Positions 40,662 to 45,355 of a DNA stretch of 64,000 bases are shown piece by piece. The position numbers and the translations under genes are program-made. Origin of the DNA: Varunaivibrio sulfuroxidans (lineage in GTDB: Bacteria > Pseudomonadota > Alphaproteobacteria > Rhodospirillales > Magnetovibrionaceae); contig NZ_CP119676.1 in assembly GCF_029318635.1 (NCBI RefSeq), positions 2,741,001-2,805,000 of the forward strand. The letters run 5' to 3'. Under the pieces are notes generated by a model that saw only the letters and a list, made by a program, of their open reading frames with translations, did no database searches and was not told the DNA's origin. Position 1 is the first letter of the stretch, and each line of letters begins with the position of its first letter.

Positions 40662-40727
40662 GTTGAAATTTATTAAGTTGTCTTTGTCGCGATTGGGTCA
40701 TGGGCTTAGGGATGGTAGAATTTTGCT

Positions 40728-40994
40728 AGGGTCAGGACCTCTTCATCTGATGCGTCTGGCAGAGATGAATTTAAGTGTGGGTTAGGCGGAGAACCCGCCG
40801 CAATGGCCCTCATTGCAAGGATTTTCCAACGACATCCGCGCTTAAATTCATCCCGTCCCGCAGGGATTTGTGAAAAATGCCCCAGGAACGTCGTCGAAGA
40901 CTTTTGAAAGTGAACGGCACTTCCGGCAAGTCTTCTCCTAGGCTTGTGACATTTTTCACAAACCAGACGCATCAGATGAAGAGGTCCTGACCCT
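40728..40994. mobile_element. Complete MITE-like element, family A (267 bp)
   Basis: A non-coding element bounded by perfect 32-bp terminal inverted repeats starting AGGGTCAGGACCTCTTCATC. Further nested inverted repeats lie inside (ATGAATTTAAG at 40764 against CTTAAATTCAT near 40841, TTTGTGAAAAATG against CATTTTTCACAAA, and GAAGACTT against AAGTCTTC), so the whole can fold into one long hairpin. Partial copies occur at 1531, 37072, 43283 and 59688. No transposase is present; mobilisation in trans by a matching IS is presumed. Confidence 0.85.
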
Positions 40995-41376
40995 TGAATA
41001 AAAGTCACCGTGATTGCGTCCCCAGGCAAGTAAAAAATTGAGCGAGGATGGATGGATTGACGGAAAAAGTTTTTTTACGGGCGACGGGGCGTGTATTTGC
41101 GCGCGATGGGGGTGGGTTTTTTCTCCTGAGTACTCGACCGATGATGTGGGGGGGGCGCTCCGGGGGTTTGCGCGTCGTTTTAACGCTCTTTATTTTTCGA
41201 ATGCGACCGCGCCGGTTGTTTTGTGTCTGCGCATTGTTTTGTGTCTGCACATTGTTTTGTGTCTGCGCATGGGGGGGGCGCCCACCCGCCGAAAAGGCCC
41301 GTCGAGACCGTTTTTAGGCAGGTGGACGCCCCTTGTTTCGCCCGTTTCGCTCGATTTACATGCGCCGCGATGGGGA
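40995..41376. other. Intergenic region downstream of the MITE
   Basis: No convincing gene. It contains the tandem repeat at 41218-41271. The radical SAM gene ends at its right edge. Confidence 0.4.
41218..41271. repeat. Tandem repeat, three units of 18 bp
   Basis: Three units of GTTTTGTGTCTGCGCATT, with one base changed in the second and the last base in the third. It lies just after the 3' end of the cbpB-like gene and has no coding role that can be seen. Confidence 0.8.
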
Positions 41377-42789
41377 TTAGGCGATATCAAAAAGGCTGAG
41401 TGCGCCGTCGTCCCAGCCGTCCCATAGGAAATCGTCCTCGCACCGATCGGCGATCAGGCGGAAGGCGTAGCGCGCTTGTTCCTTGTAAAAGGTGCAAAAT
41501 GCGCCGATCCGGTCCATCGCCCCGTTCATTTCATGGGCCTCGGCGGGACAGGGCGCGCCGCAGAAGTGGCGAATCGAACACCCGGCGCAGGCCGGTATCG
41601 CCTCGCAGGTCCTTTCGGTGACGGCGCGAAACGGCGCGCTGTCCAAAACCGACGGGATGTCGTCGGTGAACAGGTTGCCGCCGTTGAACGCCGGTAGGCC
41701 GATGAACTCGCTGCATGGGAACAGATCGCCCCCCGCACCGAGGGCGAAGAAGCTGCGCCCGCCGCCGCACGGCGAAATATCGCACATCAAGCGCCGCGCC
41801 GTCGGGGCCAGCATGGCGATCAGGATGTTGGCGAAATTGGCGACCACCATCTTGCGTCCGGTCTCGCGGTAAAGTCCATGACTGCGTTCGAGCGCGGCGA
41901 TGAAGCGGGCGGCGAGATTTTCCTCGTGCGAACGCAGGGGGCGCGCGCCCGCCATGGTGCAGCGCAGAACGTTCAACATGCAGGTCGGAACCTCATTTTG
42001 GTGCAAAAAGTCCACCATCTCGATCAAATGGTCCTGGTTTTCGCTGCTCATGGTGCAGATCACGCTCCAACCCTCGTAACCGCGCAGGCGCGCCATGGCG
42101 GCCTCGACGGCATCGAAAACGCCGCGCCCGCCCCAGGTTTTGCGGGTTTTGTCGGCAATGGCGCTTTGCGCGGCGTCCAGCGACAGGCCGACCGAACAGC
42201 GCATCTCCTTTAGGAAGGCCACCGCGTCGTCGTCCAGCAAGGTGGCGTTGGTCTGCACGCCGAAGCGGAAATCGTCGCGAAAAGCCTCGATGCCTTTGAA
42301 GACGGCGTCGCGGTTCAGTAACGGTTCGGCGCCGTGGAAAATAACTTGAGGCAAGCGGCCCTCGGGGACGGTGGTGGCGAAATAGTCCTTCAGACGGGCG
42401 AGGGCGTCGATCAGCTTATGCGCCGACATATGTTCGCCGTGTTTGCGCATTTCGCCGGGGATATAGCAGTAAGAGCAGTTTAGGTTGCACCGCTCGGTGG
42501 GATTGAAATAAACGGCCGACGGTTTCAGATGAAAGCGCAGCATGTCCATTTCCCCGTTCAATGTCTCATGGGTGTCGTCGTAAAGACGGCTGAGACGGGG
42601 AGGGATCGCCGTTTTCGCATGGTTCGATGTGTCCACCAGGGCCCACAACGCGCTGTCCGGTTCGATCAGCGCCCGATAGCGCGGATGGTCGATGTCGAAG
42701 ACGTGAAACCGGGGCGGCGCGTCGGCCGCTCCGCGGTGGTCTCGGGTCCTTTCGGAGCCCGAGACCGCGGCTTTGTCAAACGCGTTCAT
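41377..42789 (-). CDS. cbpB: Radical SAM/SPASM peptide-modifying enzyme, CbpB-like
   Basis: A 470-residue enzyme. The radical SAM cluster motif is TERCNLNCSYCYIPGEM (Cys101, Cys105, Cys108). A C-terminal SPASM domain binds auxiliary iron-sulfur clusters with cysteines in CDISPCGGG, LFPCSEF, ACAGCSIRHFCGAPCPAE and AFCTFYKE. Its ATG overlaps the stop of the 65-residue peptide gene (ATGA), the pair sits behind a cobalamin riboswitch, and this layout matches what is annotated as CbpA/CbpB, a peptide-modifying system whose product is not characterised. The chemistry on the peptide is unknown; similar SPASM enzymes make thioether or C-C crosslinks. Confidence 0.85.
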   Translation of the reverse strand: MNAFDKAAVSGSERTRDHRGAADAPPRFHVFDIDHPRYRALIEPDSALWALVDTSNHAKTAIPPRLSRLYDDTHETLNGEMDMLRFHLKPSAVYFNPTERCNLNCSYCYIPGEMRKHGEHMSAHKLIDALARLKDYFATTVPEGRLPQVIFHGAEPLLNRDAVFKGIEAFRDDFRFGVQTNATLLDDDAVAFLKEMRCSVGLSLDAAQSAIADKTRKTWGGRGVFDAVEAAMARLRGYEGWSVICTMSSENQDHLIEMVDFLHQNEVPTCMLNVLRCTMAGARPLRSHEENLAARFIAALERSHGLYRETGRKMVVANFANILIAMLAPTARRLMCDISPCGGGRSFFALGAGGDLFPCSEFIGLPAFNGGNLFTDDIPSVLDSAPFRAVTERTCEAIPACAGCSIRHFCGAPCPAEAHEMNGAMDRIGAFCTFYKEQARYAFRLIADRCEDDFLWDGWDDGALSLFDIA

Positions 42790-42983
42790 TGCGGAACCTG
42801 TCGATCCATCAAAATGTAATGGGACAGTCCGGTCCCGTCTGCGTCGCACGATTTGCGCCGGGCGATCAGGGGGGAGATCAGAGGGGCGCCTTGGGTTTCG
42901 TCGCGGACATCGGCGGCGGGGTCATCGACGGCGGAATTTTCCCGGGTCGGCGTGGTGGATACGGAGGTCGAGGTGTTGCGCAT
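42786..42983 (-). CDS. cbpA: Candidate RiPP precursor peptide, CbpA-like
   Basis: A 65-residue peptide. The N-terminal part (1-40) is Ser/Thr- and Asp-rich with PLISPLIARRK near its end, typical of a leader. The probable core has Cys46 in SCDADGTGLSHYILMDRQ, the only cysteine. GGGAG lies about eight bases before the ATG. The stop overlaps the CbpB-like start by four bases, so the two are co-translated, and a cobalamin riboswitch lies upstream. I recognise the C-terminal GTGLSHYILMD pattern as typical of the CbpA family. Whether the peptide is cut or exported is not visible. Confidence 0.8.
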   Translation of the reverse strand: MRNTSTSVSTTPTRENSAVDDPAADVRDETQGAPLISPLIARRKSCDADGTGLSHYILMDRQVPQ

Positions 42984-43083
42984 TGGTCATCTCCCGTGAC
43001 AAATAAAAAAAGGGCCTCAGCAGACGCACGCGCCCACCGATTCCCTTTGCCATCGGGTATCGACCCTTAAGGTTCCATTTTTC

Positions 43084-43232
43084 CGGTTCGTCTTCTGGCT
43101 TTCGGGCGAATAATGAAGGACTGGCCTTCCCAATCGGCGTCGCCGATCAGTGACCGGGCGTAAAGCCCACATCCCCCAAACCCGATTACAGCGGCGGGAC
43201 CGCCACGGACTTTCACCGTGTTCCGTTAACCG
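43084..43232 (-). promoter_or_regulatory. Cobalamin riboswitch
   Basis: Read on the minus strand, the leader has the conserved cobalamin aptamer elements: CGGTT (P1), GGTGAAAGTCCGTGGCGGTC, CCGCCGCTGT, GCCAGTCCTTC and the B12 box AAGCCAGAAGACG, closing with AACCG. It lies about 100 bases before the CbpA-like start. The segment between contains a run of seven T residues after GAGGCCC, which may be a terminator controlled by the aptamer. Cobalamin binding should turn the operon off. Confidence 0.9.
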
Positions 43233-43282
43233 TGAGTACAGGGATAAAACCAACCCGTCGAAAAATCAAGGAGAACGCCTCC

Positions 43283-43423
43283 CGTCCCGTAGGGATTTGT
43301 GAAAAATGCCCCACGAGCGTCGTCGAAGACTTTTGCGAGTGAACGGCTCTTCCGGCAAGTCTTCTCCTCGGCTTGTGACATTTTGCACAAACCAGACGCA
43401 TCAGATGAAGAGGTCCTGACCCT
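43283..43423. repeat. Partial copy of MITE family A
   Basis: Matches the right half of the complete element, including the GAAGACTTTTG core and the full right end CCAGACGCATCAGATGAAGA. The left end is missing. Together with the bordering TAG, its right end sits at the DMT transporter stop codon, and the copy lies between that gene and the cobalamin riboswitch. Confidence 0.85.
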
Positions 43424-44459
43424 AGTGTGCGTGGCGGTGGTGCTCATCGGGATAATGGGAATGCGAGTGCCGTACGGGCTCGTGTCTGTGGCGATGAATA
43501 TGAGATCCATCGGGGTGGGTCTCGTGGTCGTGCTGGTGGTGTTTATCATCGTGGACATGGGCGTGCGTGTGTTCCACCGCGGCGTGTTTATGCTCGTGTG
43601 CGTGGTTCTCCGTAATGTGAAGCCAAACCCCGAAGGCCATCAATCCACCGGCGAAAACAAGCGAGAAGCTTACCGTATCGCCAAGCAGAGGGACGGATAT
43701 GATTGCCCCGACAAAGGGGGCGGTGGAAAAATACGCCGCCGCTCTGGATGTGCCGAGTTCCCGCAAGGCCAGCACGAATAACGCAAGACTGACGCCGTAC
43801 CCTAAAAAACCGACGACGCCGGATAGTGCAAGGGTTGGAATTGAGGGGATGTTCGCGCCTAACAGGAGGGCGAGAAAAACGTTGGTCGCGCCGGCGACGA
43901 GCCCTTTGATCGCGGAAATCTGGAACGGGTCCGATAGCGAAACCTTTCGCGTCAGGTTGTTGTCTATGCCCCAACACAAGCACGCCGCCAATATGGCCAA
44001 CGGGGGCCAGGGGGAACGCACGGCGATCGTTCCCGTCCACGAAAGGACGACGGCGCCCGATACGATGGCCGCCATGCCCAGCGCGATGCGCCGATCGAAG
44101 TTTTCTCGGAAAACCCACCACGCGAGGAGAGCCGTAAAAACCCCCTCCGCGTTGAGCAAAAGCGAGGCGGCGGATGCGGACGTTCCCGACAAACCCCACA
44201 TGAGAAAAACGGGACCGGCGATACCTCCCGTGACGACGGCGCCGGCCATCCATGGCCAGTCGGAACGGGTCAACGCGTCACCCCGAGAGGCGCGAACGAT
44301 CCTGACAATGGAAAGGCCGATCCCCGAACCAAGATAAAGAAGCCCGGCCAAAAGCCACGGGTTCGTGTCCGCCAGCAACATTTTCGCCAACGGCGTGCTG
44401 GCTCCGAAAAGAACGGCGGCGGCGAACGCAAAAGCAATTCCGATACGATCAAGCTTCAT
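43422..44459 (-). CDS. DMT-superfamily transporter (EamA type) with histidine-rich tail
   Basis: A 345-residue inner-membrane protein with two EamA repeats, about ten helices in residues 1-280 (ILAACLCWGIDNNLTRK in the second repeat). The last 65 residues are a cytoplasmic or periplasmic tail with about 25 histidines, ending HSHSHYPDEHHRHAH, a motif I associate with metal exporters and metal-linked DMT proteins. It sits directly upstream of the cobalamin riboswitch and the cbpAB genes, same strand, so a cobalt or nickel role is a reasonable inference but not shown. The ATG at 44459 is chosen since the preceding frame contains tandem DNA repeats. The stop codon lies in a MITE end. Confidence 0.85.
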   Translation of the reverse strand: MKLDRIGIAFAFAAAVLFGASTPLAKMLLADTNPWLLAGLLYLGSGIGLSIVRIVRASRGDALTRSDWPWMAGAVVTGGIAGPVFLMWGLSGTSASAASLLLNAEGVFTALLAWWVFRENFDRRIALGMAAIVSGAVVLSWTGTIAVRSPWPPLAILAACLCWGIDNNLTRKVSLSDPFQISAIKGLVAGATNVFLALLLGANIPSIPTLALSGVVGFLGYGVSLALFVLALRELGTSRAAAYFSTAPFVGAIISVPLLGDTVSFSLVFAGGLMAFGVWLHITENHAHEHKHAAVEHTHAHVHDDKHHQHDHETHPDGSHIHRHRHEPVRHSHSHYPDEHHRHAH

Positions 44460-44508
44460 GATGCCGTCCAACGCGTCAAATCCGCGCGCCGCCCACGGCC
44501 GCGCTTCC

Positions 44509-44553
44509 AATTGAGAGCAATTTAATTGAGAGCAATTTAATTGAGAGCAATTT
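44509..44553. repeat. Tandem repeat, three units of 15 bp upstream of the His-rich transporter
   Basis: Three identical units of AATTGAGAGCAATTT. Each unit holds an inverted repeat AATTG/CAATT with a 4-base spacer, so the array could be a multi-site operator. It lies 50-94 bases upstream of the transporter start. Confidence 0.8.
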
Positions 44554-44674
44554 AAAGGAAGAGCGTCTATCTCCCAAGGGGTTTTAATGCGCAGGCGAGG
44601 GGCGTTCGAGGCCACCCGACATCGCATGCCCATCGGAACCATGAGCGAAGCGAATTGGCGTGAGATTTAAAAAA

Positions 44675-44762
44675 TGGCGGAGAGACAGGGATTCGAACCC
44701 TGGGTACGCAAGCGCACAACGGTTTTCGAGACCGCCCCGTTCGACCACTCCGGCATCTCTCC
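44675..44762 (-). tRNA. tRNA-Ser (anticodon CGA)
   Basis: An 88-base class II tRNA: acceptor GGAGAGA with TCTCTCC, discriminator G and encoded CCA, D-arm GCCGGAGTGGTCGAACGGGGC, anticodon loop CTCGAAA, long variable arm, and T-arm GGGTTCGAATCCC. Confidence 0.95.
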
Positions 44763-44924
44763 GCAGCGTGGCCTTGCCGAGTGGACCCGGCAGGGGGAAC
44801 GGGGCGCAACCTAGCCGAAACGATGATCCGTTGCAAGCGGGTCAATGAAGAAGAGCACCGTTCTTTTTCGGGGGGCGGTTTTCGCCATTTTTGGGGGTGA
44901 GTTTAGGGGCATGTGGAAGAAATG

Positions 44925-45355
44925 AGATCAGACGGTCTGTAAGCCGGGTTCTGTCCCCGCCCGAAGGCGATGGATGACCATTCATCTGGGACGTTCGTTA
45001 CCGAACGCCTCGCGCGACACACCCGAACGACAGCGCGAAAGCCCGCCTGCGGGCCGAAGCCCGCGCGCCGTTCCTACTCGGTCTTGCTCCCGGTGGGGTT
45101 TACCGTGCCGCCCCCGTTGCCGGGGGCGCGGTGCGCTCTTACCGCACCCTTTCGCCCTTACCCGCCGCCTGCCCCGCGTGGGGAACCCCAAGGGGAACCC
45201 GTCGGGTCGCGGGGCGCGCATGGGCGGTTTGCTTTCTGTGGCACTTTCCCTAGGGTCGCCCCCGCCGGGCGTTACCCGGCACCGTGCTTCCGTGGAGCCC
45301 GGACTTTCCTCCCCCCGCCCGAAGGCGGGGAGCGGTCATCCAACCGTCTGATCTC
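44925..45355 (-). ncRNA. rnpB: RNase P RNA, class A
   Basis: The catalytic RNA of RNase P, which trims the 5' ends of tRNAs. Read on the minus strand it opens GAGATCAGACGGTTGGATGA, continues with GGGGGAGGAAAGTCCGGGCT and CCCTAGGGAAAGTGCCACAG, all class A signatures, and closes with the P1 partner GACCGTCTGATCTC at the far end. A sigma-70-like promoter precedes it. The tRNA-Ser gene lies downstream. Confidence 0.95.

Follow-up and report, generated by a model that had tools for sequence, protein, structure and literature searches.

The window analyzed here is a stretch of 64,000 nucleotides (G000:C1:2741001-2805000) in the genome of Varunaivibrio sulfuroxidans, which consists of a single contig of 3.07 Mb. 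Read 5' to 3' on the minus strand, it contains a cobalamin (corrinoid) riboswitch aptamer (43249–43068), the gene cbpA for a 65-aa precursor peptide (42983–42786), and the gene cbpB for a 470-aa radical SAM/SPASM peptide maturase (42789–41377). The two genes share the four bases ATGA (42789–42786). A preliminary description of this DNA had reported the peptide frame, the overlap, the enzyme, and the riboswitch, and all were found as claimed. The aptamer matches RF00174 (cmscan, 70.3 bits against a gathering threshold of 31.5, E = 2.6e-15) and lies upstream of the pair in sense orientation. The proposed family assignment is also borne out, with CbpA scoring 54.9 bits against TIGR04164 (cut-off 35) and CbpB 681 bits against TIGR04163 (cut-off 375), such that membership is near certain. 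The pair thus belongs to curated, already named families, and the family itself is not new. Compared with the NCBIfam TIGR04164/TIGR04163 loci, both proteins are far over the curated cut-offs, the gene order is identical, and there is no essential protein difference, although the N-terminal extension of the CbpA in the window is longer than in most TIGR04164 members. A literature search found no paper that describes the CbpA/CbpB families, their product, or its role, in agreement with the earlier statement that the product lacked a description.

Several other elements lie near the pair. A MITE-like repeat with inverted ends of 34–39 bp (40726–41001) and a half copy of it (43280–43425) flank cbpAB, and the cbpA promoter should lie inside or adjoining this half copy. 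The possibility that cbpAB is a mobile cassette between 34-bp inverted repeats was rejected, because the repeat family occurs in about 24 near-full copies and additional fragments in the genome (65 matches) and its position here is likely a coincidence. Farther upstream are an EamA-family transporter gene (43422–44642), whose product has a His-rich C-terminal tail and is possibly metal-related, a tRNA gene (44678–44762), and a class A RNase P RNA gene on the minus strand (44924–45351). The EamA gene had been put forward as the pair's own transporter, but it is not kept beside cbpAB in other loci; a homolog recurs only about 5 kb from cbpAB in two of them, and the gene was dismissed as a dedicated transporter.

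The distribution of cbpB is patchy. Of 297 genomes from the order, 25 carry a hit above the cut-off; for the phylum, the figure is 11 of 398, and among 18 genomes searched from the window's own family, only this one has the gene. More loci were found in Rhodoblastus, Azoarcus/Aromatoleum, Planctomycetota, Verrucomicrobiota, Magnetococcales, Chlorobaculum, and sulfate-reducer lineages. In the CbpB phylogeny, the window homolog groups with the alphaproteobacterial set on a long branch. Azoarcus sp. Aa7 has two cbpA-cbpB loci on separate contigs (L003 and L007), and the Methylovirgula plasmid pHY1 carries cbpA-cbpB about 1.8 kb before pqqA-pqqD-pqqE and without a riboswitch (L116:4795-9744). Clustering of the genes within about 10 kb on both sides of cbpB in the fetched loci (in which the c2-type clusters took in spurious reverse-strand frames) revealed no neighbor conserved with cbpAB. 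In particular, neither an exporter nor a protease or immunity gene is conserved in these flanks, and the same holds for the dedicated export/uptake genes looked for as a sign of a secreted metallophore. In divergent loci the neighbors are related to cobalt or B12. In L010 the pair follows CobD/CbiB, in L061 it precedes CobS-CobT, and in L088 CobD and CbiA are close by. In L013 it lies between CobN, a TonB receptor, and cbiMNQ, with riboswitches ahead of the receptor gene, the cbi block, and cbpA itself. Cobaltochelatase was considered as a partner and rejected, as CobN is absent from cbpAB genomes outside the order. Moreover, the presence of cbpAB does not track that of CobN, CbiM, or NrdJ.

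The preliminary description had tied the peptide to cbpB-like genes, and this association holds. A CbpA orthologue precedes cbpB in all 50 testable loci, which represent several phyla, and TIGR04164 is over the cut-off in 35/35 genomes with TIGR04163 and in none of 20 relatives without it. The orthologues share a C-terminal core with the consensus [VI]IAxR[KR]x-C-xxxG-x-GLSH[YF]xL, which in the window corresponds to residues 39–60 (LIARRKSCDADGTGLSHYILMD; 42804–42869) as delimited by column counts and codon-position differences. In 42 distinct peptide segments, GLSH and the L three residues on do not vary, and H is followed by Y or F. Codon-position differences are 0.107/0.072/0.316 in the core versus 0.485/0.451/0.633 directly upstream, indicating purifying selection at the protein level that acts on the core and does not extend to the N-terminal part. 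At 31 residues, the L018 precursor is the shortest, with about ten ahead of the Cys. As had been noted, the window peptide has a single Cys (residue 46) preceding GTGLSHYILMD. Conservation of this Cys among homologs, which had been named as a check, holds for 49 of the 50 loci and fails in one, a Chlorobaculum MAG in which Lys replaces Cys (L013:8807-8941), yet the CbpB of this MAG retains all invariant residues. This natural variant provides a useful test of the crosslink considered below. Comparisons of CbpA with solved proteins gave only chance antibody matches.

Among 40 CbpB homologs, the CX3CX2C motif (residues 101, 105, and 108) and eight Cys of the SPASM region (336, 341, 359, 401, 404, 410, 414, and 432) are invariant. 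The AlphaFold model of CbpB (pLDDT 86.3) has its best structural match in CteB, a SCIFF thioether maturase (PDB 5WGG/5WHY; Foldseek E = 3e-21, Z = 34.7, rmsd 3.2, 379 aligned residues), with a sequence identity of about 20%. The CteB alignment spans model residues 25–450, including the N-terminal region, whereas alignments with anSME and ChlB begin only near residue 86. The part of CbpB from residue 25 to 86 therefore corresponds to the N-terminal peptide-binding region of CteB, an RRE. The ranthipeptide maturase PapB is the next-best family model, and CbpB scores 124.8 bits against it (NF047865), below the curated cut-off of 340. The difference from the CteB and PapB systems extends to the substrate, as CbpA has a single Cys and a GLSHY core. 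A PapB-type crosslink between Cys and Asp/Glu was rejected as a general rule, since the acidic residue after the Cys is not kept in L010, L011, L014, and L018. We infer that CbpB, with its CteB-like N-terminal peptide-binding region, would modify the C-terminal core of CbpA. The modification is probably an intramolecular crosslink in which either the near-invariant Cys or the SH[YF] stretch, itself invariant, takes part, and it may be of the thioether or the C–C type.

For the riboswitch, an aptamer was found before cbpA in 47 of 49 loci and in 34 of the 35 cbpAB genomes searched. These 34 genomes have 121 cobalamin riboswitches, of which 34 are before cbpA and 29 before cbiM. In 16 of the 34, including the window genome, cobalamin riboswitches are present solely before cbpA and/or cbiM. 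In one genome without cbiM (G152), the other riboswitch precedes NicO, and TonB receptors and cobalt importers in cbpAB genomes are also preceded by riboswitches. Another such riboswitch lies ahead of an OprB-family porin gene (L090:2939-4357), which is possibly involved in cobalt/corrinoid uptake across the outer membrane. These patterns show that the cbpAB pair is a member of the cobalt/B12 regulon, and the link to cobalt and cobalamin drawn in the preliminary description is upheld. Exceptions do exist. The aptamer is lost in G008/L061 while the hairpin and terminator described below are kept, in L010 the pair has no aptamer of its own and comes last in a run of cob genes, about 9 kb downstream of a riboswitch, and the Methylovirgula locus has neither aptamer nor hairpin. 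B12 control is therefore usual and not obligatory.

What is new here is how the leader RNA is built, an anatomy conserved across several phyla. All leaders with an aptamer contain a P13 hairpin whose stem covaries and whose loop, GAUGGNAAA, is complementary to the aptamer loop L5. This hairpin is present in 48 of 49 testable leaders, a count that, like the other leader counts below, is not made up of independent cases because the leaders are phylogenetically related, and 88.7% of the cells in its stem are paired. In 21 leaders, the covariation is 0.439, compared with 0.233 for shuffled and at most 0.192 for slid alignments. In several leaders the hairpin starts about 20 nt or less past the aptamer, a spacing that leaves no room for another hairpin and makes it the only candidate for P13. 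In the window, L5 is UCCCG (43195–43199), the hairpin is CGAUACCC-GAUGGCAAA-GGGAAUCG (43038–43062), and the L13 UGG complementary to L5 is at 43052–43050. Further cobalamin riboswitches of these genomes, examined for comparison, lack the hairpin, and it has no credible match among Rfam elements; searches for the motif elsewhere in the genomes gave a few extra matches. The idea that GAUGGNAAA marks the start of a hidden leader ORF was discarded, as the ATG and frame are not kept.

A U-run is present in 24 leaders, that of the window among them, and in each the 3' arm of P13 shares bases with the 5' arm of an intrinsic terminator with a predicted stability of -20.8 to -39.2 kcal/mol. In the window, the terminator (AAAGGG...GGCCCUUUUUUU; 43005–43048, -23.2 kcal/mol) takes up seven of the nine nt of the P13 3' arm, such that the two structures are mutually exclusive. 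The overlap fraction (0.93 observed versus 0.64 in shuffles) is a weak discriminator, and terminator stability is the stronger test: the terminator beats all 40 shuffles in 21/21 distinct leaders, again including the window, for which the fold z-score of the leader is -3.6. In L017, the overlap is just two of five nt. About half of the leaders, those of a Magnetospirillum-like family and Rhodoblastus, lack a U-run. In the 21 of these that were folded, a competing hairpin takes 5–10 nt of the P13 3' arm and might work at the level of translation or in another way.

Corrinoid riboswitches are textbook OFF switches, and most known cobalamin riboswitches repress. The one natural ON switch of this kind is reported to respond mainly to cobinamide. 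This sole experimentally shown activating corrinoid riboswitch, that of A. halodurans cobT, uses P13 as an antiterminator, and its bulged kissing loop GCCCG/UGGC stabilizes P13 on corrinoid binding; the P. megaterium metE switch, which represses, has a P13 that coexists with the terminator (PMC10653944). A phrase search of the literature found no second activating corrinoid riboswitch. As in A. halodurans cobT, the P13 3' arm of the cbpA leaders doubles as the terminator 5' arm and L13 UGG(N) is complementary to L5 XCC(C)G, with the GCCCG/UGGC pair of the Azoarcus/Aromatoleum leaders being identical to that of cobT. The leaders differ from cobT in that they control a RiPP pair, occur in Gram-negative phyla, and have a sign that is a prediction. 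Two marks of an activating riboswitch are present in the window, namely a P13 that structure prediction makes mutually exclusive with the terminator and L5–L13 complementarity, the latter partial at the fourth pair and unmatched there in the window (U with C). More generally, L13 UGG complements CCG or CCA of L5 in the aptamer-bearing leaders. At the fourth position, G-C is found in 6/6, A-U in 4/5, and U-A in somewhat more than half of the rest; about one third of the leaders are unmatched there. In two leaders L5 is UCCCA, which also pairs with the L13 U. The N of L13 is never G in cbpA leaders, and the C175G (UGGG) mutant of A. halodurans cobT has higher expression than the wild type (PMC10653944).

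Gene content, conservation, hairpin covariation, and the predicted overlap are all features of the sequence, and from them we infer the sign of the switch, by analogy with the single tested riboswitch of A. halodurans cobT, and the role of its product. With corrinoid bound, L5 would kiss the UGG of GAUGGNAAA and stabilize P13; because this hairpin shares its 3' arm with the 5' side of the terminator stem, it would act as an antiterminator and transcription would continue, so that corrinoid would turn cbpAB ON. For the U-run leaders, including the window, we regard ON-type regulation as likely. The predicted sign is then opposite to that of the riboswitch ahead of the cobalt-importer gene cbiM in this genome. 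That cbiM riboswitch also belongs to RF00174 and is assumed to be of the repressing type, but differs from the cbpA leader in having an ordinary P13 (loop GUAUAGGGGU) without a competing downstream terminator.

Alternatively, the cbpA leader may be an ordinary repressing riboswitch, with cbpAB made in B12 scarcity and the peptide scavenging cobalt or corrinoid, a role that the preliminary description had suggested. The prevalence of repression among known cobalamin riboswitches, the cobalt importers and TonB receptors behind the other riboswitches of these genomes, and the potential of the CbpA Cys and His to bind metal would all suit such a peptide. However, a P13 and a terminator that exclude each other form an activating arrangement, no transporter or export gene is conserved, and one lineage has Lys in place of Cys. 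Given this leader anatomy and the ordinary cbiM P13 lacking a competing terminator, a scavenging peptide made in scarcity is disfavored and we consider it unlikely. Slightly less likely still is a reading in which the GAUGGNAAA hairpin is an element distinct from L13/P13, for example an antiterminator site bound by a protein, with the aptamer acting otherwise. Conservation of the loop past UGG to A12 and AAA, and retention of the hairpin in the U-run-less leaders and (with the terminator) in G008, which lacks an aptamer, are consistent with a separate element, but the loop complementarity to L5, the partial covariation, and its place as the first hairpin past the aptamer argue for P13. Finally, an exported signal or antimicrobial RiPP for which B12 control is only a nutritional cue is improbable: many radical SAM/SPASM RiPPs are antimicrobial, and the patchy distribution and the plasmid copy in Methylovirgula are in line with this, but none of exporter, protease, and immunity gene is conserved, and the peptide is single-copy with a near-invariant, non-diversifying core.

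The reading that we prefer is a stand-alone two-gene RiPP operon under corrinoid-riboswitch control. The lack of a conserved exporter, protease, or immunity gene and the very short leaders in some lineages make an intracellular product most likely, and this product would help handle or use cobalt/corrinoid when plentiful. A role in corrinoid/cobalt handling is by itself plausible, at somewhat less than even chances, and as a whole the corrinoid-ON operon with an intracellular product for times of plenty is the account that we find moderately probable. With comparable, better than even confidence, the cbpA leaders may form a widespread class of activating corrinoid riboswitches that spans Alpha- and Betaproteobacteria, Magnetococcales, sulfate-reducer lineages, Chlorobiota, Verrucomicrobiota, and Planctomycetota, with a RiPP made on B12 sufficiency and a sign opposite to that of the cobalt-importer switch. 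If so, a conserved ON-type family would mean that some bacteria read B12 sufficiency as a positive signal. The function of this orphan RiPP would then have to be sought alongside B12 and not in its absence, and corrinoid addition would be the condition for seeking the product.
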